Shown one piece after another: positions 1,321 to 64,000 of a stretch of 64,000 bases of DNA; position 1 is the first letter of the stretch, and each line of letters opens with the position of its first letter. A model generated the notes under the pieces. That model was not told the origin of the DNA, did no database searches, and saw only the letters and a program-made list of their open reading frames with translations. Made by a program: the position numbers and the translations under genes. This DNA is from Flavobacterium hydatis (lineage in GTDB: Bacteria; Bacteroidota; Bacteroidia; Flavobacteriales; Flavobacteriaceae). The DNA is taken from positions 62,001-126,000 of the forward strand of contig NZ_JPRM01000036.1 of the NCBI RefSeq assembly GCF_000737695.1. The letters are read 5' to 3'.

Positions 1321-2613
1321 ATGAATACTTACTGTTTAAAAAGAGATTACTCTCTAAATATCCCTCAGATGTTATATGGGAGAATGTCTGAGAATTGGCT
1401 TTTAAAAGAATTAGGAGACATTCATTGGGAAATGATATCAAAGGGGTTAGGAGCGCCTTCAGATGCAATCTTTGATAGTAATGGCGAACGTCTTTATGCC
1501 AGTTTTGTAAGAATACAATGGAGCTGCCAAAACGATATAGGATTAAAATGTTTTGTTGAGAACGATGAAACGATAATCGAGTCATGCTTAGAGCAGTTTA
1601 AAACCAAAATGTTTTTAAGCAATGGAACTGTAAAAAATATAACAAGAGGTAGTGCTTTACAAACCTCAATGATTTCTATTTTTTCTGCTAGAAAGAATGA
1701 TGATAATCAAAATTTAGTCAAAGGGACACCTGTTCAAAAAGACGATTCTAAAGTACCTTTATTAAAAATAATACCTAAATACGTTAAAGCTTTCTTTAAT
1801 GTAAAGAACCACATATCCTCTTTGGCGACAGCTGAAGAAGAAACTTCAAACAAGCATTATTTCTACGATTCAGAGTTTACTATTCTGGCTGAACCATTGT
1901 TTACCAGAACTTATGAAGTAGAACCTTATGACGATATTAACGGCGTAGGGCTTTTATATTTTGCCTCTTACCCTAATATTAGTGATAAATGTGAGCGTCA
2001 TTTTTTTGAAGAGCATATTCTTATAGATGGAGAAAAAATAAATTGGGCAATTCATGCTATTTGTATAGCGAGAGATATTCATTATTATGGAAATGCCAAT
2101 CCGAATGAAAAATTAATATATCAACTCGATCAAGCCATATTAGTAGATGATTTAACCATACAATTAACATCGTCATTATATAGAGAAGAGGATGGTCAAA
2201 TTATTGCCAAGATTTTTACGGTAAAAAAGCTAAATCAAAAAGTAATTATAACCAGTGAAGTTGCAGAAGGAGTAAAGAAAGAAAAAGAGCTTTTACAGCA
2301 TGATAAAAAGAATTCGTCTGTTAAAAATGAAGTAATAGAAACTCCTAAAAAAGTTCTTGAAGAAATCGTTGATGGCAATATAAATATCTCATCAGAAGAA
2401 CTTTCGGGTACTATCATAGGCTTTTTTAATTCGGTTTATGAAGGTAGTGAAGTCGATTTAAATACAGACTTACGCAAATTAGGAGTAGAATCGATTATTT
2501 ATACAGAACTGTCTGAATATCTTAATCTTGAATGTGGATTAAAAACAAATCCAAGTCGATTTTTCGGATTGTATTCTGTTAAAGAAATTATTGCTTACTG
2601 CTTAGGAAAATCT
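1321..2613 (+). other. Loading module: LnmK-like (Pnap_2097 family) domain + ACP1
   Basis: The first 308 residues carry the family hallmark MSENWLLKELGDIHW near the N-terminus, then RLYASFVRI and a second hot-dog half. LnmK-type enzymes are bifunctional: they take methylmalonyl-CoA, load it on an ACP and decarboxylate it to propionyl-ACP. Placed at the head of the line and fused to an ACP, the domain most simply supplies a propionyl starter. The ACP has Glu where Asp normally precedes the phosphopantetheine Ser (Ser391). Starter identity is inference. Confidence 0.8.
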
Positions 2614-5600
2614 GTAATAGAAGATTCAAAAAGAGAAGAAAAAAATGATAATTATAGTTCGGATATAGCTATAATAAGTACTTGTTGCAGATTGCCTAAC
2701 GCCGATACTGCCGAGTCATTTTGGAAAAATCTTAAAGATGGTATTTCATCAATAACAACCACACCAGATGATAGATGGATTTGGCCTGAAGGAATCGAGA
2801 ATAAATATGAAGGAATAAATTATGGCGGATATATAAACGACATAGACAGTTTTGATTCTTTATTTTTTGAAATTTCTCCTAGAGAAGCTCAATTAATGGA
2901 TCCTCAACAGCGAATGCTTTTGCAATTAACTTGGGAGTTGTTTGAAAATGCAAAACAAAAACCAAGTCAATATAAGAAGAGTAATACTGGAGTGTTTATT
3001 GGGGTTAGTGGTAGTGACTATGAACGAGTAGTGGCAGAAAATGACTTAACCCAAGAAGGAACTGTTACCGGTAATGCGATTGCTCTTCTGGCTAATCGTA
3101 TTTCTTATTTTTATGATTTTGAAGGACCGAGCATGAGTATTGATACTGCTTGTTCCTCATCTTTAGTAGCCATAGCCGAGGCTGTAAAAGCATTGAAACA
3201 AAAACAATGTGATCAAGCAGTTGTAGGAGGAATCCATTTGATGTGCCATCCGGCAAAAAGTATAGCTTACAGCAATGCAAGTATGCTTAGTAAAGATGGA
3301 AAATGTCACACTTTTGATATTGATGCAAATGGCTATGTAAGGGGAGAAGGCGCTGTTGTAATGCTTTTAAAAACTTTAGATAAAGCGCTGGAAGATGGGG
3401 ATGAAATCTTAGGAATTATAAAAGGCACAGAAGTTAATCATGGAGGTTATTCGGGAGGAGTTACGGTACCTAATCCGTTTCAACAACAAAAACTGATTAC
3501 TAATGCTTACAAGCAAGCTAATATTCCGATAGAAACGGTTAGCTATATCGAAGCACATGGTACTGGAACTAAACTTGGAGATCCTATTGAAGTTAAGGCG
3601 CTTAGAGATGCTTTTGAACAAATACAGCATAATGAATCAGTAACTAAATGGTGCAGTTTAGGGTCTGTTAAAACTAACATCGGACATCTGGAAGCTGCTT
3701 CAGGAATTGCTGGATTGTTAAAAGTGCTGTTGTCAATGCAAAAACAATATTTGCCCGCAACATTAAATTTCGGAACATTAAATCCACATATAGAATTAGA
3801 AAACAGTCCTTTTAGAATTCAAACGGAGGGACAAGTATGGAAATCATCTACTAACGTGCCTCTTAGAGCAGGTGTTAGTAGTTTTGGGATAGGAGGAACT
3901 AATGCGCATGTAGTAGTCGAAGCATACGATAAGAATCCTGAATTAGATTCGGACGAATACATTCAGCTGCCTATGTATGTGTTTGTATTATCAGCTTTAA
4001 ACCAAGAAAGCTTAGAAAGATATGCTCATGAAATGTATAACTGGATACAAAAGCAAGAAACAATCCAATTAGCATCTTTTGCATATTCATTGCAAACAAC
4101 CAAAGAAGAATTTGCAGAGCGATTAGCATTTACATATAAAGATTATAATGACTTAGTAAATAAGTTAAAAAGTTTCCTTTCGAAAGAAAAGAAAGACTCG
4201 GCATTGTATTATATAGAAAATACAAAACAATACAAAGAGGTTCATAAAGAGGAGTCTACATCGAAGCAGTATATAATCGAACAAAATTTTGAAGCACTAG
4301 CTATGTTCTGGAGTAAAGGAGGAATTGTAAAATGGGAACAATTATATAACAAGTTTCAAATTTCAAAAATAGCCTTGCCAACATATCCATTTGCAAAGAA
4401 AAGGTTTTGGATAGGGAAAAAAATTGAAAGAAAAGAAAGCCAAAACATTTCAATTATACATCAAGCAGCGCTTACACAAGAAACTATTATAGCTCCTCAA
4501 GAGAGTGTAGTGATATCTATGGAATCAAAGAAGATTTTTACAGCAGATAAAATTAAGCTTATACCTGTAAATCAAATACCTACTATTGAGAAAGAAGTTC
4601 AGTTAGTATCTTCTTATCAGGGAGAAAATTTAGAATTAGTATTATCTCAAATATTAGCAGAATTATTATATCTGGAACAGGAAGAAATTAGTGAAGATCA
4701 GACGTTTGTAGAGTTAGGTTTAGATTCTATTTTGGGTGTTGAATTTACAAAAAAGATAAACAAAACTTTGGGACTTGCATTAAGTACTGCAAAGCTGTAT
4801 AGTTATCCTTCAGTAAAAGAGTTGGCAAATGCACTTAAGATAGTAGCTCAGCCACCTGTTGAAAATAAAAAAGAAGGCTTTGCTAAAATTAAGCTTCAAC
4901 CAATTGAAACTTTTGGTGATAAGCAAATTACTATTGAAAATGAAACGAAAGTAATATCGATTGAAACACTGAATGAGGATTACGAAAAAACATTAAATGA
5001 GCTTTTATGTGATTTATTATATCTGACTCCAGAAGAATTAGAACTCGAACAAACTTTTGTAGAGCTTGGGCTAGATTCTATTTTGGGAGTTGAATTCACT
5101 AAAAAAATCAGAAAACAATGGAATATTGATTTTGCTACCGCACAATTATATAGCCATCCTACTCTAAAAGAATTAGCAGGATACTTACAGAAAGTAGACA
5201 ATCGTAATCAGGTTTTAATAGCTGACGAGAACGAAACAATTTTATCAAGTAAAGAAATCGATAAAAATTACGCAGTACAGGATAATCATAAAGCTCAACA
5301 TACTAATATTCAGAAGGAGTTGCTAACATTGGTATCGGAGTTATTGTATCTGGAAGAATCCGAAGTAGATGACACACAAACTTTTGTATCATTAGGTTTA
5401 GATTCTATTTTGGGAGTAGAATTGGTGAAGAAAATCAATAAAAAATGGCAGCTTTCTATGCCTACATCACAAATTTATAGCTATCCTAATATAGTAGAAT
5501 TAAGTGATTATATAATATCAAGTTTTGAATCAACAGGAACTAATGAAACAAGAAAGCCTTTTGTAGAAAGCGTTGCGCAGGAAATTATAAATGTATTTGA

Positions 5601-8600
5601 AGAAGGTGAGCTAAAAAATATTTTGGCAGAGCTTTTATATTTAGAAAAAGAAGAAGTTTCGAGTACAGATACTTTTGTATCATTAGGCTTAGATTCTATT
5701 TTGGGTGTAGAATTCGTTAAGAAAATAAACAAAGAATTTGGGACACAATGCCCAACATCTTTGCTTTACAGTTATCCAACTTTGTCTGAGTTGTATGCCA
5801 ATTTGGTTTTGAACCATACAATTAAAAGCAACAGAAAAGAAGAAGTAAATAGTACGATTAATTCTTTTTTTAAGCCAATTACTATCATTGGTAATATCGA
5901 AAAGGATGATGAATCGAATATTGAATATCACTTAAGCACAGCAAATACACCATGTTTAAGAGATCACAAAGTATTTAATGAATACATCTTACCAACAGAT
6001 GCTTATGTTGAATTAATATATAGTTTTTTTAGAGAGCAATTGGGCAAAAAAAGCTTAACGCTAAAACAATTCCGTATCTCGGAAGTTTTAATTGCCCAAA
6101 AGGGAGAAATCGTTCCTGTTGTACTGAATTTGAAAAAAGTTGGCGAAGGAACAATTCGCTTTATAATTATTAACAAAGAATCACAGAAGGTTTATGTTAG
6201 GGGAACTATTGTAGAAGAAATTACTTTAATAGATGATTTGGTTTATGCACCTAAAGAATCCAGCATTAAGCTAGACCTAGACGCATTAACAGATTGGACT
6301 AAAGATATTTTATCTGATAGTTATTTTCAAGTTAGGAGATTTCTGGAGATTTCTGAAGAATTTGCCAAAGGGATTGTTGCTGTTACAAGACCGCAGAATC
6401 AGGCTATTAGTTACGTATCTCAATGGTTAGATGGAGCACTATTATTTGCAATACAATATGCAGCAATACAACAACGTCAAGGAAAAATTGATGGAGTGAT
6501 GTATTTGCCTTATCGTATAGAAGCTATCAATATACACGCACCAGCACAGTCTAATGTAGACTATAATTGCCACATGATTTGCCATGAAGCAGACGAGGAT
6601 AAATTTCTTTTTTCGATAGAAATAACTTCGGATTATGGTAAGTTGATAACAATTAAAAACTTAGAAGTTAGAAAAATTGATCAAAAGCAATTATTAGTAT
6701 CACAAGAAAGAAAGATAAGTACAGAAGTACAGAAAGAAGATATTATAAATGTTAAGAAACCTATAGAATCTGATGTGGCTATTATCGGAATGTCATGTCG
6801 TTTTCCTGGAGCAGAAAATACAGTAGAATTTTGGGAAAATTTAAAGCAAGGTGTCGACTCTATTACTGAAATAGATTTAGAACAATGGCAAGATATTGAT
6901 TGGTATGATAAAGACCCAAAGCAGCAAAAAAAATCTTATAGTAAGTGGGCTGGATTTATAAAAGACAAAGATAAGTTTGATCCTTTGTTTTTTGGAATAT
7001 CACCTCGCGAGGCAGAAGTAATGGATCCTCAGCATCGTATATTTTTACAAGAATGTTGGAGAACAATAGAAGACGCAGGTTATACATCAAAAGCAATTGA
7101 TAAACAAAATGTAGGTGTTTTTGTCGGGGCAAGCTCAGGTGATTATCAACAATTATTGGCTCAAAATCAATCTGATAAAGATGGTTTTGCTTTTATGGGA
7201 AATTCTCAAGCGATATTGGCAGGAAGAATTGCTTTTTTATTGAATTTAAAAGGACCAGCTTTAACACTAGATACGGCATGTTCATCTTCGTTAGTCGCTA
7301 TTGACAGAGCATATCAAAGTGTCGCATCTGGAGAAACAGATATGGCTCTTGCAGGAGGCGTAAAATTAATGTGTACTCCGTTATTGCACATTTGGACAAG
7401 TCAAGTAGGAATGGCATCTAAGGATGGAAAATGTAAAACGTTTGATAATAAAGGCGATGGTATTGTTTCTTCTGAAGGGGTGGGAGTACTGTTCTTAAAA
7501 AGACTAGATGCAGCTATAAAAGATGGAGACCAAATACATGCAGTAATTAAAGCTAGTGGTATTAATCAAGATGGCAAAACAAATGGTATTACAGCGCCTA
7601 ATGGAGCAGCACAAGCTTTGCTCCAACAGCGCATTTATAACCAATATAATATAGATCCAGCAACCATAAAATATGTAGAAACTCATGGTACTGGAACTAA
7701 GCTAGGAGATCCTATAGAAATTGAAGCATTAAAAACGAGTTTTGGTACAAAATCAGCATTAGATAATAGTTGCGCATTAGGATCGGTAAAAACAAATATT
7801 GGTCATGCTGCTGAGGCTGCAGGAGTTTCGGGAGTTATTAAGACCATACTCATGCTTAAGAACAAGTATCTTGTACCTAGCTTGCATTTTGAGCAACTTA
7901 ATGATGAGATATCTTTAGAGAAGTCTCCATTTTATATTAATACTACGCTCAAACCTTGGCAACTTAACAACGAAAATCTTAGGCGAGCAGTTGTAAGTAG
8001 TTTTGGATTTAGCGGAACCAATGCTCATTTGGTTTTAGAAGAATATCCAGAATCAAAAGCTGGTAAAATTACAGATGATGGCACGGAACAATTGATACTG
8101 CTTTCTGCTAAAACAGAATATAGTCTTAAAACTCAGGTACAGCAGGTGGTAGATTACCTTAAAGAAACTAAAGAATCTTTAAGAGCAATTGCTTATACGC
8201 TACAATTAGGGAGAGATGCTATGCAGGAACGCTTAGCTGTTATAGGAAACTCTAAAGAAGAAATCATAAAGCATCTTTCTAAATTTCTTGATGCATCTAA
8301 TCATGAAGTATTAAGAGGAACAGTTGAAAAACGAAAAAAAATTACAGCATCTATAAGTCAGGAAGAAATAGATACTGCTATACTAAAAAAGAATTACCGA
8401 ACTCTGGCAGAAACATGGATTTCGGGAATAAATATAAATTGGGCACTTGTATATGATAAAGAACAAATACGAAAAGTTCAATTACCAACTTATGCTTTCG
8501 AAAAAGACAGGTACTGGATAGAACCTGTAAAATCAAGTGTAATAACGGAATCGGTTTTAGAACCTGTTCATAATCAATTGCATCCATTAGTGCATCGTAA

Positions 8601-11600
8601 TGTTTCAGCATCGGACGGACATTTGTATGTAAGTAAGTATTCAGGGCAAGAAACGATTTATAAGGATCATGTAATTGATGGTAACAAAGTTCTGGCAGGA
8701 GTTGCTTATATAGAGCAAGCTAGTATTGCTTTAGAGCAAGCTACTTTGCAACGAATATGGGGACTCAAAGATATTTTTTGGCAACAACCACTTTTAGTAA
8801 ATACTCAAAAAGAGGTGTTTACCAGAATATATTCAGACTCAAAAAATAATAACTATGAGATTTATACTAAAGAAAATGGAAGTATTTTAATTCATGGTAA
8901 AGGAACTGCTATTTTGCAAGAGCCATTGCAACCAGAAAAAATAGATTTAAGAAGGTTGTTGAGTTTAAGTCAAAAAAAGACTTCAAGAGAAGAATTCTAT
9001 GCTTTTCTTAAAACAAAAGGTTTTGATTTAGGAGCAAGTTTTAGTGGAGTACAAGAACAGTATTCAACTTCAGATTTTTCTATTTCTAAAATACAGTTGC
9101 CTTTACAAGAAGGGTATAAGATGCAACCAGGTGCTTTGGATAGTGCATTGCAAAACGCATTGGGTTGGATTATGATGGAGGGAGTATTAGATCAGGCACT
9201 TCCGTTTAGTATGAAAACATGCTACCGATTTGTTGAGCAATTGCCAGAAACATTTTGGTCGTATGCTCGCAAAAGCAAATCAAACCAAGTAACCGATAAA
9301 GTTCAGGAATATGATATAGATATTTTAGACGAGCAAGGTAATGTCTTAGTTCAATTTCAGCAATGTGTATTTCTTCCTATAAAAGATAAAAGAAAAAAAG
9401 AGTCTGGTAATGCACTAGATATTCAGGAAGTTACATGGCAAAAAGTAGCCTATCACAAAAATCAGGAATCAGTTTATAGCCATACAATTGTATATATGAT
9501 TGGAGGTAATCCAATTTTGGAGGATGCAATTAGAAATTCTTATGAGGCAGAGATTCAATCTATAACTATTGAAAATGAGATTTCGACCTATATTCAAATT
9601 TTTGAAGATGTAAAACAAAGACTTCATACAAAAGTAAGAACGCAATTAATTGTTTTAGGATCAAACGAAGAATATGAACAGTTTGGTTTCCTTTCGGGAA
9701 TGCTGAAAACGCTAACATTAGAACATCCTAATTTAGAAGGGAAAGTAATTGCTATTGAAGATTTTTCAATTCATAATATCGATGAGATACTTGAAATATT
9801 ACATAAAGAACAATTTAATAAAGCAGTTGAGGTAAAATATACATCTCTAGAAAGACTAGAAAAAAGCAATGCAGAACTTATTATTCATAAACAGCAAGAT
9901 AGTTTAATTAAAACTTCTGGAGTATATGTATTAGTAGGAGGAACAGGTGAAATAGGACGTACTGTTTCTGAATATATTCTTGAAACTTTTGATACTAAAG
10001 TGATATTGTTAGGCAGAAGTGAACAGCCCAACAAAAAATTACCTCAAGGTGCATATTATTATCAATGTGATAGCACAGATGCATCTTCTGTAGCCAGAAC
10101 TTTTAAAGAAATTAGAGAGCAGTTTGTTACAATTAATGGTATAATTTATCTCGCTGGGATTACGGCTGATGGTTATGCGAAAAATAAAACGATAACGGAT
10201 GCTACAAAAGTTTTAAAAGTAAAGATAGAAGGTATCAAGAATATTGATAAAGAAACGAAGCATGATTCTTTAGATTTCATGGTTTTATTCTCTTCTGTAG
10301 CGGCAATTTATGGCAATATAGGACAGATAGATTATGCTGCAGCAAATGCTTTTCTTGATGATTATGCAAGATATAGAGAAAATCAACGTAGCAAAGGAAA
10401 TCGCTACGGGATTACTAAAAGCATCAATTGGCCTTTGTGGAAAAATGGTGGAATGCAGATTAATGCAGATACAGAAGCATTTTTGCAAAAAAAGTGGGGA
10501 ATGCAAGCTATGCCTAATGAAGAAGGTATAAAAGCATTGAAACAAATTTTGGACTCAGATTGTGTTCAGGCTTCCGTTATATATAAAGTTTCATCAGAAA
10601 AAGTTCCAACGAAGGCAGAAAACAGTATCAATTCGAATAGAATTTCGACCAAAACGTTGCTAGTAAAATTAACAGAATTAGCAGCAACATTGGTTAAAAT
10701 GAATCCGGAAAAAATAATTTCTCATATAGAACTGGGAGATTACGGTTTTGATTCTATTTTATATACACAGTTTTGTAATGAAATCAATGGATTTTTTGGA
10801 TTAGATGTAACTCCAACATTGTTTTTTAATTACCCAACTTTAGATGAATTAACAGCACATTTAGAATCGACTTATACCCTTTCGGTAAAAGAAGATCTGT
10901 CACTTAATCATGAAAGTGAGAACATAGCGATTTCTACAGTTCAAGATGAGGCGACAAAAGTAAGTTTTGATATCAATTCGAATAAAGCTGAACGTAGAAA
11001 AGAAGTAGCCATAGTAGGTATGAGCGGACGTTTTCCAGGTGCGGAAAATGTAGATCAGCTATGGGAACACTTAAAAAATAAAGAAGACTTAATTACAGAA
11101 GTTCCTGAGAGTAGATGGGATTGGAAGAAGTATTACGGAGATCCACAACAAGAAGAAAATACGACTTTATGTAAATGGGGCGGTTTTCTGGACGGAATAG
11201 ATGAGTTTGATCCTTTGTTTTTTAATATTTCGCCTGTCGAGGCAGAATTGATGGATCCTCAGCAACGATTAGTATTGCAGGAAGTATATCATGCTTTAGA
11301 AGATGCTGCAATTTCAATTAATACAATTAAAGGAACAGATACTGGAGTTTTTATCGGAGTATCAAGTTCAGATTATTCGACTTTATTAAAAGAACAAACG
11401 AACCAAATAGGGATGGCGCAATTTGCGACAGGATCTGCCCATTCCGTTTTAGTAAACAGAATATCCTATATTTTCGATTTGCATGGCCCAAGTGAGCCTA
11501 TCGATACAGCATGTTCTAGTTCTCTGATAGCAATACATAGAGCTGCAGAACATATAAGAAATGGTCATGGTACAATGGCAATTGCAGGAGGTGTAAATGC

Positions 11601-50029: not shown

Positions 50030-50365
50030 ATGATAGTATCTATTACAAAAATAAAAAGCACATCACTATTAAAATCAATGTCATTATTCTCTGTAGAAAG
50101 CCGATTAAAAAAACAGATGAAAGAAGTAAAGTGCATAAAATATAGAAGTTTAAAACTCTTTAGAATTGTTTATACAATGACATTATGGAGAGACCAAGAA
50201 CATATGTTAGAATTTAGAAACAACGGAGAACATAGAAATGTTATGAAGGATATAGGCAAAATAGCAGTATACGGCGCCTATGTTTCTTATGAAACAGATA
50301 AAAGCCCTTCATGGAAATCTGCAATAAAGATGTTAAACGAAAAAGGAAAGAAAGTAAACTATTAA
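50030..50365 (+). CDS. Small ABM/DUF3291-like protein
   Basis: 111 aa. The pattern TMTLWRDQEHMLEF, followed by GEHRNVMKDIG and a C-terminal SPSWKSA segment, matches dimeric alpha/beta-barrel proteins of the antibiotic-biosynthesis-monooxygenase / DUF3291 (CrtA-like) group. Relatives bind or oxidise hydrophobic substrates without cofactors, or have no known activity. It sits between the last PKS gene (30 bp) and the Rieske-P450 (22 bp), so a tailoring or accessory role is likely, but the reaction cannot be named. Confidence 0.7.
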   Translation: MIVSITKIKSTSLLKSMSLFSVESRLKKQMKEVKCIKYRSLKLFRIVYTMTLWRDQEHMLEFRNNGEHRNVMKDIGKIAVYGAYVSYETDKSPSWKSAIKMLNEKGKKVNY

Positions 50366-50387
50366 TTGATTTATAAAATTACAGAAT

Positions 50388-52193: not shown

Positions 52194-52245
52194 ATAAACC
52201 ATTTGAATTATAAACTAGAGCCTTAAAATTTTTAAAAATAATAAA

Positions 52246-53556: not shown

Positions 53557-53589
53557 TTTTTTTTATTAATTAAAACCAAGAACAAATCG

Positions 53590-55866: not shown

Positions 55867-55898
55867 TTACAGAATAAAAATATTAAAATAATAAGAAT

Positions 55899-57218
55899 AT
55901 GAGTACCAGAAGAGAACATGCAGTAGTAATTGGGGGGAGTATGGCAGGCTTAGTCGCAGCAAGAGTACTAAGCAAGCATTTTAGAAATGTAACTATTATA
56001 GAAAAAGATAAAGTAAATGATAAACCAGAAACGAGAAAAGGACAACCTCAAACTAGGCATATTCATTTGGTATTAGCGCAGGCAATGAACATACTGTTGG
56101 GATATTTTCCTTCGCTAAAAAAAGAATTGAAGGAAGCTGGCGCATTAGAGCTCGATGTCTGTAATGATTACAATTGGTATTCTTATGGCGGATATAAGAA
56201 AAAAGGAGTTACAGGAATTACAGCCCTTACTATGACAAGGCAACTTTTAGAATATCATGTAAAAAAGCATGTTTTGAGCATCAGGAATATTAAAATTCAA
56301 GATGAAACCAAAGCCTTAGAAATGAAAATGAAAGATGAAAATGTCTACGGTTTAGTATTAGAAAAAGATGGAGAAAAACAGCTTATAGATACTGATTTTG
56401 TTGTAGATGCATCAGGAAGAGGAACCAGAGCTTATAAATGGCTAGAGCAGCATGGATATGCAACACCAGAAGAAACTAAAATTAAAATTGATATAACGTA
56501 TGTAACCATATTATTTGAGCGCAAAGAAATACCTCAAGGAAAAAAAGCAGAAGTAATTAGCTATACTCCAGATGCACCAAACGAAAAATTAGGAGCAGTG
56601 CTTATGCCTATCGAAGATAATAGATGGGTACTTACGCTAATAGGAATGAGAGGAGTAGAACCACCCCAAAATGATGAAGAATTATTAAAATTCTTAAAAG
56701 GACTTCCTATTTCAGGATTATATGATAATATATCAGGAGCTAAGAGACTTACAGATTTTCTAGTATTTAAATGTCCGCATAGCATAAGAAGACATTATGA
56801 AAAACTAAAAAGATTCCCAGGAGCTTATTTAGTTTTAGGAGATTCAGTTTCAAACTTCAACCCGATGTATGCACAAGGAATGGCATCATCTATATGTCAG
56901 GCTAAAATTTTAGACGAAGTACTTACAATTATTCCATCAAATGATAAAGTATTTAAGCCTTATATAAATAAAGTAAATGACGTGATAGAAGATTTTTGGA
57001 CCGCGGGCTCTTACGAAGATTTTAAATATCCAGAAACAGAAGGAGAAAAACCAGTTGGACTAAAAATGGTTAATGGATATATGAAAGCTTTGCAAAAAGC
57101 AGCCAATAAAGACACAGAATTATTTAAAGAAATATTAGAAGTAGCGGGATATCTTAAATCAGGAAAAACACTATTTAGACCCAAAATTATGTGGAAAGTA
57201 TTTAAAACAAATCTATAA
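55899..57218 (+). CDS. FAD-dependent monooxygenase, Lsd18/MonCI-like epoxidase (2)
   Basis: 439 aa, paralogue of the 52246-53556 product. GGSMAGLVAARVL is the dinucleotide motif; ETRKGQPQTRHIH matches the epoxidase-group block even better than the first copy; DASGRGTRAYKW and GDSVSNFNPMYAQG complete the FAD-binding set. Expected to epoxidise the polyene or hydroxylate it. Two copies suggest two oxidation sites or two successive oxidations. No epoxide hydrolase of the MonB/Lsd19 type is visible in the window. Confidence 0.86.
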   Translation: MSTRREHAVVIGGSMAGLVAARVLSKHFRNVTIIEKDKVNDKPETRKGQPQTRHIHLVLAQAMNILLGYFPSLKKELKEAGALELDVCNDYNWYSYGGYKKKGVTGITALTMTRQLLEYHVKKHVLSIRNIKIQDETKALEMKMKDENVYGLVLEKDGEKQLIDTDFVVDASGRGTRAYKWLEQHGYATPEETKIKIDITYVTILFERKEIPQGKKAEVISYTPDAPNEKLGAVLMPIEDNRWVLTLIGMRGVEPPQNDEELLKFLKGLPISGLYDNISGAKRLTDFLVFKCPHSIRRHYEKLKRFPGAYLVLGDSVSNFNPMYAQGMASSICQAKILDEVLTIIPSNDKVFKPYINKVNDVIEDFWTAGSYEDFKYPETEGEKPVGLKMVNGYMKALQKAANKDTELFKEILEVAGYLKSGKTLFRPKIMWKVFKTNL

Positions 57219-57238
57219 TTAAAATAAAAAACAAGAAT

Positions 57239-57472
57239 ATGAAAAATCAAATAATAGAACAAATCAGAGAAAATTTACTTGAAATTATTCCAGAATTAGA
57301 AGGAACAACAATATCAAATGATGAGAAACTATCAGATATAGGAGCAAATTCTATTGATAGAGCAGAATTAATTGCATTAACATTAGAACAATTAGAAAAA
57401 GAAATTCCTAGAATAGAATTGGCAGGAGCGCAAACCATAAATGAATTAGCAGAATTGATTGCTGAAAAATAA
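57239..57472 (+). CDS. Free donor acyl carrier protein of the HMGS cassette
   Basis: 77 aa. The phosphopantetheine site is Ser38 in GANSIDRAEL, with Asn in place of the usual Asp; this ANSIDRAE signature is characteristic of donor ACPs (AcpK-like) used in beta-branching. It carries malonyl, is decarboxylated by the next protein to acetyl-ACP, and donates acetyl to the HMG synthase. First gene of the five-gene cassette. Confidence 0.93.
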   Translation: MKNQIIEQIRENLLEIIPELEGTTISNDEKLSDIGANSIDRAELIALTLEQLEKEIPRIELAGAQTINELAELIAEK

Positions 57473-57488
57473 AAACACCTACGTTTAT

Positions 57489-58757
57489 ATGAGTCCAGAT
57501 CAAATACATAAAGTTTGTGTAACAGGAATGGGAGTAGTTACGCCTGTAGGGATAGGAATCCCCGCTTTTACAGAGGCTTTAAAAAACGGAAAATCGAATT
57601 TTGCTATAAAAGAGTATGTTATAGAAGATAGAACTTTTAAATACATATATGGAAAAGTAGAAGATTTTGATCTAAAAAAGCACATATCTGATAGTGAGTT
57701 TGAGGAACATTGGAAACTAAAAGTTAAACGTTTACGAGATATTTCATTAAGTACTGCTTATGGAACATTTTGTGCGCTGGAAGCTTGGCATCATGCCAAG
57801 CTTCCATCAACTATTGATAAAAGTAAAATTGCTATAGTTGTAGCGGGAAATAATACACAACAGCAGCATTGTCAGGACATCAGAGATACTTACAAAAACA
57901 AAATGCAATTCATGAAACCTTCCTATGGATTCAATTTTTTGGATAGTGATATGATAGGTGTAGCGTCAGAATTATTTGAGATTACAGGAGAAGGATTTAC
58001 AGTAGGAGCTGCTAGTGCTAGCGGAAACATGGGAATCATTCAGGCTTGTAGACTTATAGAAGCAAAAGATTATGATGCCGTTATGGTAATTGCGCCTATG
58101 ATGGATTTATCAGTTTATGAGTATCAAGGACTTTCTGCTTTGGGAGCAATGCAACCAATATCGCCAGATGCAGAAGAAATTCCTTTATATAAACCTTTTG
58201 ATGTAGGTCATACAGGATTTGTATATGGGCAAAACGCAGGAGCAATTATTTTAGAATCAAAAGAACATGCTCAACAAAGAAAAGCAAAAGTATTTGGGAC
58301 TATATCAGGCTACGGAGTTACACTAGATGCCAATAGAAATCCAAATCCCTCCGTAGATGGAGAACAAAAGGCTATAGCCAAAGCAATGCAAAAAGCAGGT
58401 ATTGTACCAGAACAAATTGATTATATCAATGCACATGGTACAGGATCAAAACTTGGAGATTATACAGAGATAGAAGCTTTGATTAATTTGGAACTTAAAA
58501 ACAAACCTATAAACAGTACAAAATCATTAATTGGTCATGGCATCACAGCGGCAGGAACAGTCGAAGCTATTGCAAGTCTGATACAAATGAATGAAAATTT
58601 TGTGCATGAAAATCTTAATTTAAAAACACCAATAGACTTTCCTATGGATTGGATACAAAGCTATAGAGATGTTCATTCAATACAGTACACGTTAAGCAAT
58701 AGTTTTGGTTTTGGAGGTATCAATACAGCAATCATTCTAGAGGCGTCACCAATATAG
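57489..58757 (+). CDS. Decarboxylating ketosynthase (KS with Cys to Ser), HMGS cassette
   Basis: About 422 aa from the ATG at 57489 (MSPDQIHKVCVTGMGV), which starts just ahead of the conserved KS N-terminus. An upstream in-frame ATG at 57459 would add 10 residues and overlap the ACP gene by 14 bp. FabF-like fold with HGTGS and a GHG motif, but the active site reads GAASASGN: Ser replaces Cys (residue 176 from the 57489 start). Such KSs (PksF type) cannot condense and instead decarboxylate malonyl-ACP to acetyl-ACP for beta-branching. Confidence 0.92.
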   Translation: MSPDQIHKVCVTGMGVVTPVGIGIPAFTEALKNGKSNFAIKEYVIEDRTFKYIYGKVEDFDLKKHISDSEFEEHWKLKVKRLRDISLSTAYGTFCALEAWHHAKLPSTIDKSKIAIVVAGNNTQQQHCQDIRDTYKNKMQFMKPSYGFNFLDSDMIGVASELFEITGEGFTVGAASASGNMGIIQACRLIEAKDYDAVMVIAPMMDLSVYEYQGLSALGAMQPISPDAEEIPLYKPFDVGHTGFVYGQNAGAIILESKEHAQQRKAKVFGTISGYGVTLDANRNPNPSVDGEQKAIAKAMQKAGIVPEQIDYINAHGTGSKLGDYTEIEALINLELKNKPINSTKSLIGHGITAAGTVEAIASLIQMNENFVHENLNLKTPIDFPMDWIQSYRDVHSIQYTLSNSFGFGGINTAIILEASPI

Positions 58758-58772
58758 AATTAAAGAAAAAAT

Positions 58773-60020
58773 ATGAGAGCAGGAATAGAAGCTATAAATA
58801 TATATTGCGGATCAGCAGCGATAAACGTTGTTGAATTAGCAAAACATCGAGAATTAAACATCGAGCGATTTGAAAATTTATTGATGAAAGAGAAAACCGT
58901 ACCAATGCCCTATGAAGACCCAATTTCAAACGGAGTAAATGCGGCAAAACCTATATTAGATGCATTAACAGCAGAAGAAATAGAAAGCATAGATATGTTA
59001 ATCACTTGTTCAGAATCAGGAATAGATTTTGGAAAGTCGATGAGTACCTATATGCACGATTATTTAAAATTAAGCAGGAACTGCCGATTGTTTGAACTTA
59101 AGAATGCCTGTTATTCAGGAACGGCAGGTTTACAAATGGCTGTTAATTTTGTGCTTTCGGGTACAGCTCCGGGCAGAAAAGTTTTAGTTATCGCCACAGA
59201 TATTATGAGGATGAGTACAGTAGAAGGAGCTGCTATGGAAATGTCTTTTGTAGAGCCTTCTTCGGGATCAGGCGCAGTTGCTATGTTGGTTAGCGATAAA
59301 CCAAAGATATTCGAAATAGATAAAGGAGCTAGCGGTTATTACGGTTATGAAGTTATGGATACTTGCAGACCAGTACCAGACAAAGAAGCAGGAGATTCTG
59401 ATTTATCTTTATTATCATATTTAGATTGTTGCGAAAATAGTTTTAAAGAATACCAAAAAAGAGTCGATGCTATAGATTATCAAGATAGTTTTCAATACTT
59501 AGTATTTCATACACCATTTGGAGGAATGGTAAAAGGAGCACACCGAACCAACATGCGAAAATTTAAGAAAGCAAAACCAGATCAGATAGAAATAGATTTT
59601 CAAGAACGTGTAGCGCCTTCTTTAGAATATTGCCAGAGAGTTGGGAATATTATGGGAGCAACAACCTATTTGGCATTAGTTAGTATGATAGAAAAAGGAA
59701 ACTTTGAAACGCCAAAAAGAGTTGGAATATTTTCGTACGGATCAGGATGTTGCTCAGAGTTTTTTAGTGGAGTAATACATCCAGAAAGTCAAGATATAAT
59801 TTCGTCCTTGGCAATAGAAGAACATTTAGATCAACGCGTAGTATTATCTATGGAAGAATATGAAAGTACATTTTTAGTCAACTCAGAAATCAAATTCGGA
59901 ACAAGAGATTTTAAAATAGATACCACATTATATCCAGAACCCTTCAGTAAAGTAAAAGGAAAAAAGAAACTAATCTTTTCAGAAATTAAAAATTATCACA
60001 GAATTTACGAATGGGTATGA
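58773..60020 (+). CDS. HMG-CoA synthase-like enzyme (beta-branching HMGS)
   Basis: 415 aa, the usual length. Catalytic residues are visible: Glu81 in TCSESGID, Cys113 in NACYSGTAG, His246 in FHTPFGGMVKGAH. It condenses acetyl-ACP with the beta-ketone of the PKS-bound chain, giving an HMG-like intermediate (PksG/BaeG role). Its stop overlaps the start of ECH1 (ATGA). Its most likely target is module 1, the only one without a KR. Confidence 0.95.
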   Translation: MRAGIEAINIYCGSAAINVVELAKHRELNIERFENLLMKEKTVPMPYEDPISNGVNAAKPILDALTAEEIESIDMLITCSESGIDFGKSMSTYMHDYLKLSRNCRLFELKNACYSGTAGLQMAVNFVLSGTAPGRKVLVIATDIMRMSTVEGAAMEMSFVEPSSGSGAVAMLVSDKPKIFEIDKGASGYYGYEVMDTCRPVPDKEAGDSDLSLLSYLDCCENSFKEYQKRVDAIDYQDSFQYLVFHTPFGGMVKGAHRTNMRKFKKAKPDQIEIDFQERVAPSLEYCQRVGNIMGATTYLALVSMIEKGNFETPKRVGIFSYGSGCCSEFFSGVIHPESQDIISSLAIEEHLDQRVVLSMEEYESTFLVNSEIKFGTRDFKIDTTLYPEPFSKVKGKKKLIFSEIKNYHRIYEWV

Positions 60021-60799
60021 TACAAGGAGATATTATATATAGCACCGTTTTAGTAACGCAACAAAGAGAAGTTGTGCATATTCAGCTCAATAGACCTCAA
60101 CAGGATAATAGTATTAATGCTGTAATGGTAAATGAACTTTTGGAGGTTTTAGAAAATGTAAAACAAAATACAAAAGTTAAAATCATTGTATTATCTGGCA
60201 ATGAAAATCAATTTTGTACAGGAATGGATTTTGATGCAGTAGTAAACCAACAGGGCGAAGCCTTAATGAACGAACGACCAGATCAATATTATAATTTATT
60301 GAAAGCTATTAGCGAAATCGATAAGGTGGTAATAGCAAAAGTAGAAGGAAAAGTAAACGCAGGAGGATTAGGATTAGTTGCCGCTAGTGATATAGTAATA
60401 GCAAATAATCAGGCAACTTTTGGTTTATCCGAAGCCTTATTTGGATTATTACCTGCTTGTGTAATGCCTTTTTTGATACAAAGAATAGGGCCACAGAAAG
60501 CCAAATGGATGACATTAATTACACACGGAATAACAACCGAGCGAGCTTATGAAATAGGTTTAGTAGATGAGGTAGCAGACGAAATTAATAATCAGCTAAG
60601 GAAAAATATACTAAGACTTAGCCGATTAGAAACCAATACAATTCAAGAAATAAAATCCTATACAGCAAAACTTTGGATAATTAAAGACGAAACCAAAATA
60701 CTAGCAGTTAATAAATTACAGTCATTAATGGAATCAGAAATTGTACAAAATAATATAAAGAACTTTGTAGAGAAAGGAGAATATCCATGGGAGAAGTAG
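60017..60799 (+). CDS. Enoyl-CoA hydratase-like ECH1 (dehydratase), HMGS cassette
   Basis: 260 aa from the ATG at 60017, chosen because it gives an ATGA overlap with the HMGS stop; an in-frame ATG at 60011 is the alternative. Crotonase fold with NAGGLGLVAASD and the stretch FGLSEALFGLLPACV, typical of PksH/BaeH-type ECH1. It dehydrates the HMG-type intermediate to a glutaconyl-ACP. It overlaps ECH2 by 13 bp. Confidence 0.92.
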   Translation: MIQGDIIYSTVLVTQQREVVHIQLNRPQQDNSINAVMVNELLEVLENVKQNTKVKIIVLSGNENQFCTGMDFDAVVNQQGEALMNERPDQYYNLLKAISEIDKVVIAKVEGKVNAGGLGLVAASDIVIANNQATFGLSEALFGLLPACVMPFLIQRIGPQKAKWMTLITHGITTERAYEIGLVDEVADEINNQLRKNILRLSRLETNTIQEIKSYTAKLWIIKDETKILAVNKLQSLMESEIVQNNIKNFVEKGEYPWEK

Positions 60800-61533
60800 T
60801 AAGCATTACAGAAATAACCAATGATATCGTGCAAATAACAATGCAAGATAAAGAGTCAAGAAATACATTTTCTAAAGAATTAATAGAAGGATTAAAGGAA
60901 GCTTTTGCTATTGTAAAACAAAAGAAAAACTATAAAGTAGTCATCCTAACAGGATACGATAGTTATTTTTCTTGTGGAGGAACTCAGGATGAGCTGCAAC
61001 AAATATATGATCGGGAATTAAAATTTACCGAATTAGATTTTTTTACAGCACCAATTGATTGTGAGATACCTGTAATTGCTGCCATGCAAGGACATGCAAT
61101 AGGAGGCGGGCTTGTTTTTGGGTGTTATGCAGATTTTCAAATTTTAGGAAAAGAAAATATATATACTGCAAACTTCATGAAATACGGATTCACCCCAGGA
61201 ATGGGAGCAACCCATATGGTACCTTTACGTTTTGGATCATCATTAGGTTACGAAATGCTTTTTACAGCCGAAAGTTATAGAGGCGGAGAATTACAAGAAC
61301 GTGGAGTATCTTTGCAGGTAGTTCCCAAAAAAGAAGTTATTACAGAAGCAATAGTATTAGCAAAGAAGTTAGCCGAGAAGCCAAGACTTTCGTTAGTAAC
61401 GCTAAAAAAACACATGACATCAAAAATCAAGGTAAGTTTAAAAGAAGTATTTGAGCAGGAATTAGAAATGCACGAAATAACTTTTCAGCAATCAGAAGTC
61501 GAAGAAAATATAAAAGCCTTGTTTGGGAGGTAA
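60787..61533 (+). CDS. Enoyl-CoA hydratase-like ECH2 (decarboxylase), HMGS cassette
   Basis: 248 aa. Crotonase oxyanion motif HAIGGGLVFGCYAD and the ECH2-typical MKYGFTPGMGAT. It decarboxylates the glutaconyl intermediate made by ECH1, leaving a beta-methyl (or methylene) branch (PksI/BaeI role). Last gene of the cassette and probably of the long operon: a hairpin follows. Confidence 0.93.
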   Translation: MGEVVSITEITNDIVQITMQDKESRNTFSKELIEGLKEAFAIVKQKKNYKVVILTGYDSYFSCGGTQDELQQIYDRELKFTELDFFTAPIDCEIPVIAAMQGHAIGGGLVFGCYADFQILGKENIYTANFMKYGFTPGMGATHMVPLRFGSSLGYEMLFTAESYRGGELQERGVSLQVVPKKEVITEAIVLAKKLAEKPRLSLVTLKKHMTSKIKVSLKEVFEQELEMHEITFQQSEVEENIKALFGR

Positions 61534-61545
61534 ATAGCTAAACCG

Positions 61546-61580
61546 TATTCCATAAGAACACGATTAGCTTTTATGGAATA
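61546..61580 (+). terminator. Hairpin after ECH2, possible transcript end or processing site
   Basis: TATTCCATAA (61546-61555) and TTATGGAATA (61571-61580) form a perfect 10-bp stem with a 15-nt loop. The stem is AT-rich and no clear T-run follows, so a factor-independent terminator is uncertain. It lies in the only gap (98 bp) between the HMGS cassette and the last gene block. Confidence 0.45.
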
Positions 61581-61609
61581 TATTTAGCAATCAAAAAAAT
61601 ATAGTAATC

Positions 61610-61629
61610 TTACACAAGTTTTACACAAG
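61610..61629. repeat. Tandem 9-bp repeat just upstream of the acyl hydrolase gene
   Basis: TTACACAAG occurs at 61610-61618 and 61621-61629, an 11-bp period (one helical turn), ending two bases before the ATG at 61632. Position suggests an operator or translation-control element; function unknown. Confidence 0.5.
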
Positions 61630-61631
61630 GT

Positions 61632-62603
61632 ATGAAAAAGCATAAAGTTGTCTTTTTATTTTCTGGTCAAGGTAGTCAGTATCGTAATATGGGCAAAGAC
61701 CTATTTACGAATAATGCTACTTTTAGATCAAGTATTAAAGAAAGTGATTTAATTTTTCAGAACTATTTGCATAGATCACTTATAGAAGAATTATACCATA
61801 AAGACGATTCAGATTTTGATGAACTATTAATTACTCATCCAGCAATCGTAGCAATCGAGATTGCTATGATAGAGGTAATGAAGTCTTATGCTGTTTTTCC
61901 AGATTATGTTTTTGGGCAAAGTTTGGGGGAGTTTGCTGCTGGAGTTGCAAGTGGTGTTTGGTCGGCTCCAACGGCTATAAAAGCAGCTATAGAACAATCT
62001 AAATCTTTGATAAGAAGTAATCTTGAAGGCGGAATGCTTACGGTTATTGATGCTCAAGTACATTATAAATCTAAAACTTATGAGCAATATAATTTGCATC
62101 TGGCGAGTGATAATTTCCAGAGAAGCTTTACTGTTTCTGGCACAGCATCAAATTTAGATCAATACCAAAAAAACTTAAAGCAAGAAGAGATAATGCATTC
62201 CCGAATTCCAGTAACAGTTCCTTTTCATTCTCCTCTTATTAACGAAGGGTTAAATGATTTTTCGTGTTATATGCAACAAGGCATTGATTTGGCTAAGCCA
62301 AAGGTATCTTATGTATCTAGTCTAACATCAAATTTATTAACATACATCGATGCCGAGTATTATAATCAAGTTGTAAGTTCCTATTTTAATTACAGCAAAA
62401 CAATTAACTTTCTAGAACAACTCGGGCCGTGTTTATATATAGATTTAGGACCTTCAGGTACTAGTGCTACCTTTACTAAATATTCAATTCCAAAAACATC
62501 AGAGTCGCATATACAGCCTATTTTATCTCCTTTTGGAAATGAACTTAAACAGTTAGAAAAATTAAAAGGTTTAATTTCTAATCCCTCCAATTATGTTATA
62601 TGA
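61632..62603 (+). CDS. AT-like acyl hydrolase (proofreading, PedC-like)
   Basis: 323 aa. FabD/AT fold with SGQGSQYRNMG at the start, nucleophile Ser97 and His199 (VPFHS). The nucleophile elbow reads GQSLGE: Gln96 replaces the His of GHSLGE. This substitution, to my knowledge, marks the trans-AT acyl hydrolase clade (PedC type), which removes stalled acyl groups from ACPs rather than loading malonate. A second loading AT is the alternative. The gene overlaps the PPTase start by 11 bp. Confidence 0.82.
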   Translation: MKKHKVVFLFSGQGSQYRNMGKDLFTNNATFRSSIKESDLIFQNYLHRSLIEELYHKDDSDFDELLITHPAIVAIEIAMIEVMKSYAVFPDYVFGQSLGEFAAGVASGVWSAPTAIKAAIEQSKSLIRSNLEGGMLTVIDAQVHYKSKTYEQYNLHLASDNFQRSFTVSGTASNLDQYQKNLKQEEIMHSRIPVTVPFHSPLINEGLNDFSCYMQQGIDLAKPKVSYVSSLTSNLLTYIDAEYYNQVVSSYFNYSKTINFLEQLGPCLYIDLGPSGTSATFTKYSIPKTSESHIQPILSPFGNELKQLEKLKGLISNPSNYVI

Positions 62604-63333
62604 AGGCACAATAAAACTCGTAAGAGAAAATTCTGAACATTCAGCTGGATATACTATTATAAAGCGAGAATTACCCGATTTGCATGGATGTTTAAAAATT
62701 TTGCATTTAGATGAGATAACCTATTTAAATTCTTTAAAATTCGATAAACGAAAATCTAGTTATTTGTTAGGGCGTATAAGTGCAAAGAGAGCTTTAAACA
62801 AAATTATTCCAGTCGAGACAGCAATGAATTCTTTTAAAGTAGGTTTTGGAGTTTTTCAATTTCCTGTTATAGAGTATCTGCCTTACTCTGGTTTACAGGT
62901 TTCTATAACGCACTGCGATACTATTGGTATTTCTATGGCTTATCCAGAAGCCCATCCTATAGGTGTGGATATAGAGCGAATCAATCCAGAAAAAGTCGAT
63001 TCGATGGTAAATATGTTTACCCAAGAAGAAAAAAATTTAGCAAATTCAAAACTCAATAATAAGGCTACAGCCTATACGTTGCTTTGGACAGTAAAAGAAA
63101 GCTTGTCTAAAATTTTAAAGACAGGAATGATGATTGATTTTAAATATTTAGAAATAGATTGTCTTAATTATAAAGAAGGAATATACACGGGAAACTTTAA
63201 AAATTTCCCTCAATACAAATCATTTTCTATAGTTTTAAATTCTTATATCGTTTCTATTATCTGTCCCAGAAACACAAATATAGATTTAACCAATTTTGCA
63301 AAACATCTAACTTATCTAAACTCACAGTCTTAA
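62593..63333 (+). CDS. Sfp-type 4'-phosphopantetheinyl transferase
   Basis: 246 aa. Diagnostic motifs: Mg-binding GVDIERI (D126, E128), WTVKES (165-170) followed by LSK, and an upstream SITHC. It transfers phosphopantetheine from CoA to the Ser of the ACPs, here presumably the 14 PKS ACPs and the free ACP. Overlaps its neighbours on both sides (11 bp with the hydrolase gene; TAATG with the next gene), so the three form one unit. Confidence 0.93.
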   Translation: MLYEGTIKLVRENSEHSAGYTIIKRELPDLHGCLKILHLDEITYLNSLKFDKRKSSYLLGRISAKRALNKIIPVETAMNSFKVGFGVFQFPVIEYLPYSGLQVSITHCDTIGISMAYPEAHPIGVDIERINPEKVDSMVNMFTQEEKNLANSKLNNKATAYTLLWTVKESLSKILKTGMMIDFKYLEIDCLNYKEGIYTGNFKNFPQYKSFSIVLNSYIVSIICPRNTNIDLTNFAKHLTYLNSQS

Positions 63334-64000
63334 TGATTTATGTGCAACTTTTTGAGGTTACTAATGGTGTTTTTAATAATCAATGTTACCTAATTCATAA
63401 TCAGTATGAAGGTATTTTGATTGATCCGGCTTGGAATTACGAGCTTATCAATTCTTATATAGAAGAAAATGGAATCTTATTAAAGGGAGTATTGATTACA
63501 CATGGTCATCTAGATCATCTAGATTTGGCAGAAGAATTCTCCGAAAAAAATAATGTACCTATATGGATGTCAGAAATAGATGCAATTAATTTCCGATTAA
63601 CATATCCTAAATTACAATTGGTTACCCATTTACAAAGCTTTAAAATTGGTACAATCGAAATAACTCCAATTCTAACTCCAGGGCATACTTCGGGTAGTGT
63701 TTGTTATGTAATAGATAAGCATGTGTTTTCTGGAGATACTGTTTTTATCGAGGGCGTTGGAGTTTGTTCTAAAGAAGGAGCTGCAAATTTGTATGATTCC
63801 GTTCAGTTTTTAAAAAGTTATTTATCAGTTGATTCCCTATTTTGGCCTGGTCATTCGTATGGCGTAGCACCAGGAAAAGCAATGTCTTACCTAATGCTAT
63901 ATAATATTTACTTTCAATTTAACTCAAAAAAATCTTTTGTAGCTTTTCGAACTCGCAAAAATCAGCCTTCATTATTTAAATGGCCATTCGGTAAGAAAAA
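63333..64000 (+). CDS. Metallo-beta-lactamase-fold hydrolase, BaeB/PksB-like (3' end outside window)
   Basis: Starts at the ATG 63333-63335, overlapping the PPTase stop (TAATG), and stays open to the window end (222 codons). Glyoxalase-II-type metal ligands: H57, H59, D61, H62 in THGHLDH, then His in TPGHTSG, Asp in FSGDTVF, and His in WPGHSYG. Homologues in bacillaene and other trans-AT clusters hydrolyse acyl thioesters and are seen as housekeeping or editing enzymes. The family length is about 225 aa, so only a few residues should be missing. Third gene of the short downstream unit. Confidence 0.9.
   Translation, partial: MIYVQLFEVTNGVFNNQCYLIHNQYEGILIDPAWNYELINSYIEENGILLKGVLITHGHLDHLDLAEEFSEKNNVPIWMSEIDAINFRLTYPKLQLVTHLQSFKIGTIEITPILTPGHTSGSVCYVIDKHVFSGDTVFIEGVGVCSKEGAANLYDSVQFLKSYLSVDSLFWPGHSYGVAPGKAMSYLMLYNIYFQFNSKKSFVAFRTRKNQPSLFKWPFGKK

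Follow-up and report, generated by a model that had tools for sequence, protein, structure and literature searches.

An orphan trans-AT polyketide synthase cluster in Flavobacterium hydatis, predicted to make an oxidised, fatty-acid-like product

Gene content and domain order

We analyzed a window of 64,000 nucleotides from Flavobacterium hydatis. It encodes four polyketide synthase (PKS) proteins, PksA to PksD, which comprise modules M1 to M10, along with tailoring proteins and an HMGS cassette (Table 1). The initial annotation described a trans-AT PKS, and this is borne out: there are ten KSs, none of the 14 pieces between KSs has a match to an integrated AT (Pfam), and a discrete AT is encoded in the cluster. 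The domain order was checked with Pfam, NCBIfam, and an in-house HMM pass. (The in-house models were derived from the window's own domains, so the window's high scores with them are by construction.) Four features go beyond that annotation: the donor ACP, the Rieske domain of the P450, the split DH of M7, and the Ala in the KR of M8.

Table 1. Features of the window
Feature	Position	Strand	Domains or evidence
TPR sensor histidine kinase, 3' part	1..936	+	HATPase_c; TPR match; gene begins upstream of the window
PksA	1321..14979	+	loading LnmK-ACP; M1 KS1-ACPx4-DH (degenerate); M2 KS2-DH-KR-ACP; M3 KS3-DH-KR
LnmK-type bifunctional acyltransferase/decarboxylase domain (predicted propionyl starter)	1336..2235	+	TIGR04098
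Four tandem acceptor ACPs of M1, no KR	4639..5808	+	PP-binding, 4 stretches; GLDSI in 4/4
PksB	15014..31300	+	M3 MT-ACP; M4 KS4-DH-KR-ACP; M5 KS5-DH-KR-ACP; M6 KS6-DH-KR-ACP; M7 KS7-initial residues of DH7
PksC	31306..42243	+	M7 remainder of DH7 (His, Asp sites lost)-KR-ACP; M8 KS8-DH-KR (Ser to Ala)-ACP; M9 KS9-DH-KR
PksD	42245..49999	+	M9 MT-ACP-ER; M10 KS10-DH-KR-ACP; thioesterase (TE)
Small protein (111 aa)	50030..50365	+	weak DUF3291 match under cut-off; present in 3/3 species
Rieske [2Fe-2S]-cytochrome P450 fusion	50388..52193	+	PF00355 residues 13-84, PF00067 136-589
MonCI/Lsd18-type flavin epoxidase 1	52246..53556	+	phmmer to Lsd18 E=2.8e-38
Discrete malonyl AT fused to PfaD-type trans-acting ER	53590..55866	+	TIGR00128 302.9, TIGR02814 542.7 bits, both above cut-off
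MonCI/Lsd18-type flavin epoxidase 2	55899..57218	+	phmmer to MonCI E=2e-48
Donor ACP of HMGS cassette	57239..57472	+	PF00550; PRK07117 77.5 bits, slightly under cut-off 79
KS-like decarboxylase	57489..58757	+	PRK07103 above cut-off (scan from earlier TTG start); AASASG at the Cys-motif position of condensing KSs
HMG-CoA synthase homologue (HMGS)	58773..60020	+	PF08540, PF01154 above cut-off; TIGR01835 under its cut-off
ECH1	60011..60799	+	PRK07112 above cut-off
ECH2	60787..61533	+	PRK07110 above cut-off
Second AT-like protein (GQSLGE)	61632..62603	+	PF00698
4'-Phosphopantetheinyl transferase	62593..63333	+	PF01648
MBL-fold hydrolase	63333..63998 in window	+	PF00753; gene end 64022, 22 bases beyond the window

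The second AT-like protein may be either an acyl hydrolase or a second AT; its GQSLGE motif was weighed against parts of PMC11775670. For the MBL-fold hydrolase, the top NCBIfam model is SolJ (190.5 bits, under the cut-off of 350). The structure model of the 111 aa protein (pLDDT 56.6) was too poor for fold comparison, and we found no convincing solved relative of this protein. A divergent gene upstream of the histidine kinase encodes a response regulator, with a match slightly under the cut-off. The kinase and the regulator are candidate regulators of the cluster.

Conservation in other Flavobacterium

An identical domain order is found in Flavobacterium sp. KMS (NZ_JSYP01000020) and F. poyangense JXAS1 (NZ_JAALLN010000008), and hence in all three species including the window (in-house HMM pass), which excludes chance. 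PksA-D from KMS are 83-85% identical to those of the window, and the compared 2005 amino acids of PksD from F. poyangense are 80% identical. In both genomes, the tailoring genes are in the window's order and the donor ACP is also present; the F. poyangense copy was absent from the in-house HMM listing and was recovered by reading the gap. The 655 aa kinase and the 224 aa regulator are 82% and 93% identical in KMS, and neither had a match in the stretch of F. poyangense that we fetched. A sequencing frameshift could explain why PksB and PksC are separate proteins, but the split recurs in 3/3 species, so we set this aside.

Starter unit and module 1

LnmK forms propionyl-ACP from methylmalonyl-CoA, as in leinamycin biosynthesis. 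The LnmK domain of PksA scores 143.5 bits against TIGR04098 (cut-off 100), and the genome encodes methylmalonyl-CoA mutase. By analogy, we predict that this domain is a bifunctional AT/decarboxylase that decarboxylates the methylmalonyl group to give propionyl-ACP.

We built phylogenetic trees of KSs, with labels that were derived from domain content and known structures rather than from transATor. Fragments of KSs that covered fewer than 250 or 300 model positions were left out, as were, from 78 loci, the KSs without annotation before them (73 were kept). The KSs of KMS were omitted as near-duplicates, and those of F. poyangense were omitted from the 166-row tree and kept in the 103-row tree. 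All ten KSs of the cluster lie in groups shared with trans-AT KSs from Bacillus or other Bacteroidota, in trees without a cis-AT KS outgroup. KS1 belongs to a five-row set (support 100) of KS1s that are loaded by LnmK. LnmK-loaded KS1s are split over two places in the tree, and those of Aq821 and Biz1139 are apart from KS1. Both the TIGR04098 score and the placement of KS1 support the propionyl start that was first proposed. Ten extensions would follow, with malonyl supplied by the discrete AT. This agrees with the proposed C23 backbone (3 + 10 x 2 carbons) with three methyls.

The HMGS beta-branching cassette is complete: it includes the donor ACP, the decarboxylase KS, HMGS, two ECHs (of which ECH1 is presumably the dehydratase and ECH2 the decarboxylase), and the tandem acceptor ACPs without a KR. 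KS2 falls among KSs located directly after ECH/tandem-ACP modules (support of 86, 74, and 96/94 in separate trees). Given this grouping, the lack of a KR, the four ACPs, and the complete cassette, the original assignment of a beta-methyl to M1 stands. The cassette would convert the beta-ketone on the four ACPs to a beta-methyl alkene, C20=C21. The ACP beside LnmK could also be the donor for the beta-branch, as in leinamycin biosynthesis; we set this role aside because the cluster encodes its own donor ACP and a KS decarboxylase.

Modules 4 to 10 and release

KS5, KS6, KS7, and KS9 are in the alkene KS group and have Met before the Cys. KS5-7 thus support the alkenes that were assigned to M4, M5, and M6, which would form a conjugated triene, C10-C15, or a tetraene with M3. 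In M7, the DH that is split across PksB and PksC has L, Y, or F at the His site and E at the Asp site across the three species. Because both catalytic residues are lost, the hydroxyl would be kept at C9, as initially proposed; KS8, however, is outside the beta-OH KS group, and its membership was rejected.

M8 was described as giving an alkene or a ketone, and it stays either way: KS9 is in the alkene group, but the KR of M8 has Ala at the Ser site in 3/3 species. (We take this site to be the catalytic Ser.) Among 50 reference KRs from seven clusters, 36 match SS, 13 miss the pattern but keep the Ser by eye, and one, from Aquimarina RZ0, has SA. M8 might therefore leave C6=C7 or a C7 ketone. 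M9 would give a saturated alpha-methyl unit, in agreement with the first reading: it has its own ER, and KS10 is near difficidin KS14. For M10, domain content suggests an alkene. The chain would then be a 2-enoyl thioester, from which the TE probably frees a linear C26 acid.

Modules 2 and 3 and the predicted product

The initial annotation assigned alkenes to all of M2-M6 and described a hexaene. M4-M6 fit this, but M2 does not, M3 gains no support from KS4, and the hexaene as a whole is not supported.

For M2, the grouping of KS3 with 12 alkene KSs was rejected (AU test, dlnL 244, p = 1.2e-6; the groups were named after inspecting the tree, which weakens the p values). Unlike KS5-7 and KS9, with their Met-Cys, KS3 has Ala before the Cys; Ala at this position is common (65 of 103 rows), including after many DH-KR modules. 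KS3 forms a six-row set (100/100) with two KS1s that take an LnmK-loaded starter, and it is in a 14-row set (90/84) with macrolactin KS3 and bacillaene KS2. A set of 12 "saturated" KSs that includes KS3 did not hold up well as a single clade either, although the rejection is weak (dlnL 7.7, p = 0.04); the set contains bacillaene KS12 and KS13, which may take alkenes. Since KS3 is outside the alkene group, we consider it most likely that M2 is fully reduced, with the PfaD-type trans-ER that is part of the AT-ER protein as the reductase. The cluster thereby tests which predicts M2 better, KS kinship or domain content.

M3 would add an alpha-methyl at C16, with C16=C17 either an alkene or reduced. 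KS4 was rejected from the alpha-methyl-alkene group (dlnL 225), and it groups with KS10 and difficidin KS14 (100/96). KS4, KS8, and KS10 fall together in a separate clade, so neither M3 nor M7 has clade support. The rejection of KS4 as an alpha-methyl-alkene KS and of KS8 as a beta-OH KS both go against the simple reading.

We infer each chemical step of this pathway; the gene content, domain order, active-site losses, KS kinship, and conservation are demonstrated. With a probability of about two in three, we conclude that the cluster is a complete orphan ten-module trans-AT PKS for an oxidised, fatty-acid-like product with a triene or tetraene. This chromophore would probably be less conjugated than the hexaene. 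We computed neutral masses for the candidate acids: 398.2821 with M2 saturated (C26H38O3), 430.2719 for the same acid with two epoxide oxygens (C26H38O5), 414.2770 for its C7-ketone variant (C26H38O4), 400.2977 with both M2 and M3 saturated (C26H40O3), and 396.2664 for the hexaene (C26H36O3).

One sub-case of this reading, which we consider possible but doubtful, is that the trans-ER reduces both M2 and M3, so that only the C10-C15 triene is left and the epoxidases would target C20=C21 as well as other positions. The grouping of KS4 with KS10, which accepts an alpha-methyl saturated chain, and with difficidin KS14 argues for this. But KS8 belongs to this clade too, and the module before KS8 lacks an MT and is expected to leave a beta-hydroxyl, so the clade may reflect lineage instead of substrate. 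A strictly colinear product, with a conjugated hexaene across C10-C21 and a 9-hydroxyl and with epoxidation later on, seems improbable. In its favour, M2 and M3 each have intact DH and KR motifs and no integrated ER. But both KS3 and KS4 were rejected from the corresponding alkene groups, KS3 lacks the Met-Cys, and the trans-ER would be left without an obvious site, because M9 has its own ER.

Tailoring enzymes

The presence of two epoxidases and a P450, as originally described, was upheld by phmmer and Pfam, respectively. Both flavoproteins are homologous to MonCI and Lsd18 across the FAD and substrate domains, and we predict from this that they act on an alkene of the polyketide. The P450 fusion contains the Rieske motif (C-x-H...C-x-x-H) and the haem motif. 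We did not see this fusion in 394 other Bacteroidota genomes, and what we read of PMC10992505 describes none. The two epoxidases and the Rieske-fused P450 would oxidise the released chain.

If M3 leaves an alkene, then M1-M3 would form a 1,5-diene of the type that MonCI/Lsd18 epoxidases use. We tentatively suggest that the propionyl start, the HMGS-derived beta-methyl (C20=C21), C18-C19 saturated by the trans-ER, and the C-methylated C16=C17 yield a homo-isoprenoid 1,5-diene, with one epoxidase for each trisubstituted alkene, and that the P450 adds oxygen with its own Rieske ferredoxin. If so, polyether-type chemistry was reached convergently in Bacteroidota. Lsd18 (lasalocid) and MonCI (monensin) are from the same sequence family as the two flavoproteins, but Lsd18 works in a polyether pathway of actinomycetes that also has the epoxide hydrolase Lsd19 (PMC12144862); when the donor ACP and 13 tailoring proteins were scanned with Pfam, we recognized no MonB/Lsd19-type epoxide hydrolase. 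Class A flavin epoxidation does occur in trans-AT pathways, by mupirocin MmpE and the spliceostatin FMO, but these are built into the PKS (PMC7619045), while the cluster's two epoxidases are free-standing. The genome of B. spizizenii has no MonCI-type epoxidase. (No positive control was included when we searched 13 other trans-AT genomes for the epoxidase; in the Aquimarina search described below, all three were found.)

Relationship to known clusters

Trans-AT assembly lines are well known, and this cluster is a fresh, orphan example: we found no product for it in the literature. In one survey of Flavobacteriaceae, trans-AT clusters made up 0.50% of biosynthetic gene clusters and were from four genera (PMC10734526, in part). 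The cluster is apparently complete and is found in three Flavobacterium genomes, and its trans-AT PKS is accompanied by two polyether-type epoxidases, both free-standing, and by a Rieske-P450 fusion that was absent from the other genomes searched. It also yields checkable predictions, namely masses, the chromophore, and the site of the trans-ER.

The initial annotation raised cuniculene as a possible product. Cuniculene has been placed in A. muelleri, Aq78, Aq349, EL33, and RHTr2 (parts of PMC9323603 and PMC9860996), and we infer that the Aquimarina trans-AT cluster is of the cuniculene type. Both are flavobacterial trans-AT clusters, and the LnmK-ACP-KS start is common to both, at 47-55% identity in 10 of 66 genomes from the genus of Aquimarina sp. 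RZ0. But the best identity over residues 1-860 of PksA in those 66 genomes was just 55%. The one Aquimarina cluster that we read, in G522, has HMGS beside the PKS, yet it has more modules, other proteins in another order, and ECH-like domains inside the PKS. MonCI-type epoxidases were found in none of nine Aquimarina genomes with the other trans-AT cluster, versus 3/3 positive controls. (Eight of these nine have a match over residues 2-859 at 54-55%; the ninth, G478, has similar KS matches.) As far as these Aquimarina genomes allow us to judge, we regard identity or close homology with the cuniculene cluster as very improbable.

In Bacillus, we take the difficidin, macrolactin, and bacillaene PKSs to be those with the appropriate gene order and size. 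They have another module order and no LnmK loading, but they too have trans-AT KSs, and difficidin shares the DH-KR / MT-ACP-ER-KS arrangement of M9-M10.

Cluster content and conservation

The window (G000:C36:62001-126000, from a 5.88 Mb genome) contains a trans-AT PKS cluster that is real, conserved, and an orphan. The four PKS proteins, PksA-D, carry ten KSs, and domain scans of the pieces between the KSs found no AT domain. The genes 3' of PksD encode a 111-amino-acid protein, a P450, two flavoproteins, a discrete AT fused to a PfaD-type trans-ER (AT-ER), and an HMGS cassette; these are followed by a second AT-like protein, a phosphopantetheinyl transferase, and an MBL hydrolase. The initial annotation had read these genes correctly. 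Flavobacterium sp. KMS has the same gene order, with 83-85% identity for PksA-D and 84-95% for the tailoring proteins, and it also has the donor ACP. In F. poyangense JXAS1, we found the tailoring genes, the identical PKS domain order, and the donor ACP.

Features of the cluster (window coordinates)
Feature	Coordinates	Description
PksA-D	1321-49999	ten KSs
DH-like domain	5887-6714	degenerate motif; separates the four M1 ACPs from KS2
Split of DH7	31270-31340	few residues past HPL motif; parts five bases apart; 3/3 species
Rieske [2Fe-2S]-P450 fusion	50388-52193	Rieske N-terminal; C-x-H and C-x-x-H motifs
Donor ACP	57239-57472	77 aa; flanked by second epoxidase and decarboxylase KS

The initial annotation had also raised the possibility that this was the cluster for cuniculene, which two reports place in A. 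muelleri, Aq78, Aq349, EL33, and strain RHTr2 (PMC9323603, PMC9860996). We infer that the cluster in the Aquimarina genome G522 is of the cuniculene type, and its architecture is unlike that of the cluster in the window. Across 66 genomes from the genus of Aquimarina sp. RZ0, PksA residues 1-860 had matches in 35 (E <= 1e-80); among the matches listed, the LnmK part was covered in at least 10 of the 35 and the best identity was 55%.

Starter unit and M1

A match to the LnmK model spans residues 12-300 of PksA. We assume that, as in leinamycin, LnmK forms propionyl-ACP; methylmalonyl-CoA mutase is present in the genome. M1 has four ACPs and a DH-like domain, and a domain scan found no KR in it. 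The DH-like domain is a possible isomerase for the beta-branch alkene. KS2 clusters with KSs that follow ECH/tandem-ACP modules (support of 86, 74, and 96/94 in three trees). The residue before its active Cys is Ala; according to one report, Ala or Gly precedes the Cys in 94% of 64 KSs after beta-branching modules (PMC7619045). Because Ala is common generally (65 of the 103 KSs in our tree set), this carries little weight.

M2 probably gives a saturated unit

The domain content of M2 predicts an alkene, but the KS evidence points the other way. In a tree of 103 KSs, KS3 falls in a set of 8 (support 100) with KS1 of Aq821 and KS1 of Biz1139, which accept LnmK-loaded starters, and in a set of 16 (support 95) that contains macrolactin KS3 and bacillaene KS2; the identities of the three Bacillus clusters were assigned by our own recognition. 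A more careful tree of 34 KSs repeated this placement (100/100, six rows). From the structure of macrolactin, we take its KS3 to accept a saturated unit. Forcing KS3 among 12 alkene KSs cost 244 log-likelihood units (p = 1.2e-6). Three points weaken this reading: a hand-made "saturated" set was weakly rejected (p = 0.04), bacillaene KS12/13, within the wider set, may be alkene acceptors, and the KS groups were named only after the trees were seen. KS5, KS6, KS7, and KS9 have Met just ahead of the active Cys, but KS3 has Ala there. The trans-ER of the AT-ER protein matches the PfaD-type model above the cut-off. Because M9 already contains an ER, the natural place for the trans-ER to act is M2. 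We put the probability of a saturated unit from M2 at about 0.7.

M3 to M10

The hexaene that was originally predicted is unsupported: besides the KS evidence against the M2 alkene, the M3 alkene lacks clade support, as KS4 was rejected from the Bacillota alpha-methyl-alkene KSs (dlnL 225) and clusters with KS8, KS10, and difficidin KS14. The alkenes from M4-M6 are backed by KS5-7. MT domains are present in M3 and M9.

A placement of KS8 among the beta-OH KSs was rejected (p = 0.0003), which leaves the predicted C9 hydroxyl from M7 to DH7 alone. The His site of DH7 is L, Y, and F in the three species, and its Asp site is E. DH7 is divided between PksB and PksC, possibly as a docking arrangement. 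C7 is predicted to be an alkene or a ketone: in all three species, Ala occupies the Ser site of KR8, a substitution shared by 1 of 50 reference KRs, but KS9 falls in the alkene group. The predicted product of M9 is a saturated alpha-methyl unit. For M10, no KS follows that could serve as a clade check; the TE matches PF00975.

Tailoring enzymes

Both flavoproteins are homologous to MonCI/Lsd18. As described in one report, this family converts trisubstituted alkenes to (R,R) epoxides, and Lsd18 converts farnesyl acetate to a bisepoxide (PMC12144862). If M2 is saturated and M3 gives an alkene, then C16=C17 and C20=C21 would form a 1,5-diene like an Lsd18-type substrate, a reading that we consider rather unlikely. 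We recognized no epoxide hydrolase in the cluster. MonCI/Lsd18-type epoxidases were found in none of 13 other trans-AT genomes and, in a second search that recovered all three positive controls, in none of 11 further genomes (nine Aquimarina, Biz1139, and G412).

Among 60 genomes (F. hydatis and 59 relatives), full-length matches to the Rieske-P450 fusion were found only in F. hydatis itself and KMS; the fusion is also present in F. poyangense. The P450 has matches in 30 of 395 Bacteroidota genomes, including its own. None of the other 29 matches starts before residue 117, which places them all beyond the Rieske match, and none of the 394 other genomes has a full-length match.

Distribution

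We searched 397 evenly drawn Flavobacteriaceae genomes, including F. hydatis. HMGS was found in two (E <= 1e-20), F. hydatis and G412, whose HMGS-carrying cluster is unlike the one in the window. AT-ER was found in 10 (E <= 1e-60); of the nine other genomes, two had matches that cover both AT and ER, and seven had a part only. A LnmK-ACP query had matches in all four genomes of chosen loci, including F. poyangense. LnmK-ACP starts also occur in trans-AT clusters of Aquimarina sp. RZ0 (two), uncultured Aquimarina 821-3Z, and Flavobacterium sp. H122.

The cluster may be located in a mobile region. Upstream is a PRTRC-system ThiF gene (TIGR03736, above the cut-off). Downstream is a DUF2586 protein amid genes of phage-like appearance; for a 677-amino-acid protein in this stretch, no match was found. 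In another genus of the family, G131:C7:303278-304255 matches the AT part of AT-ER at 56% identity with six stops, and is possibly a decayed trans-AT remnant.
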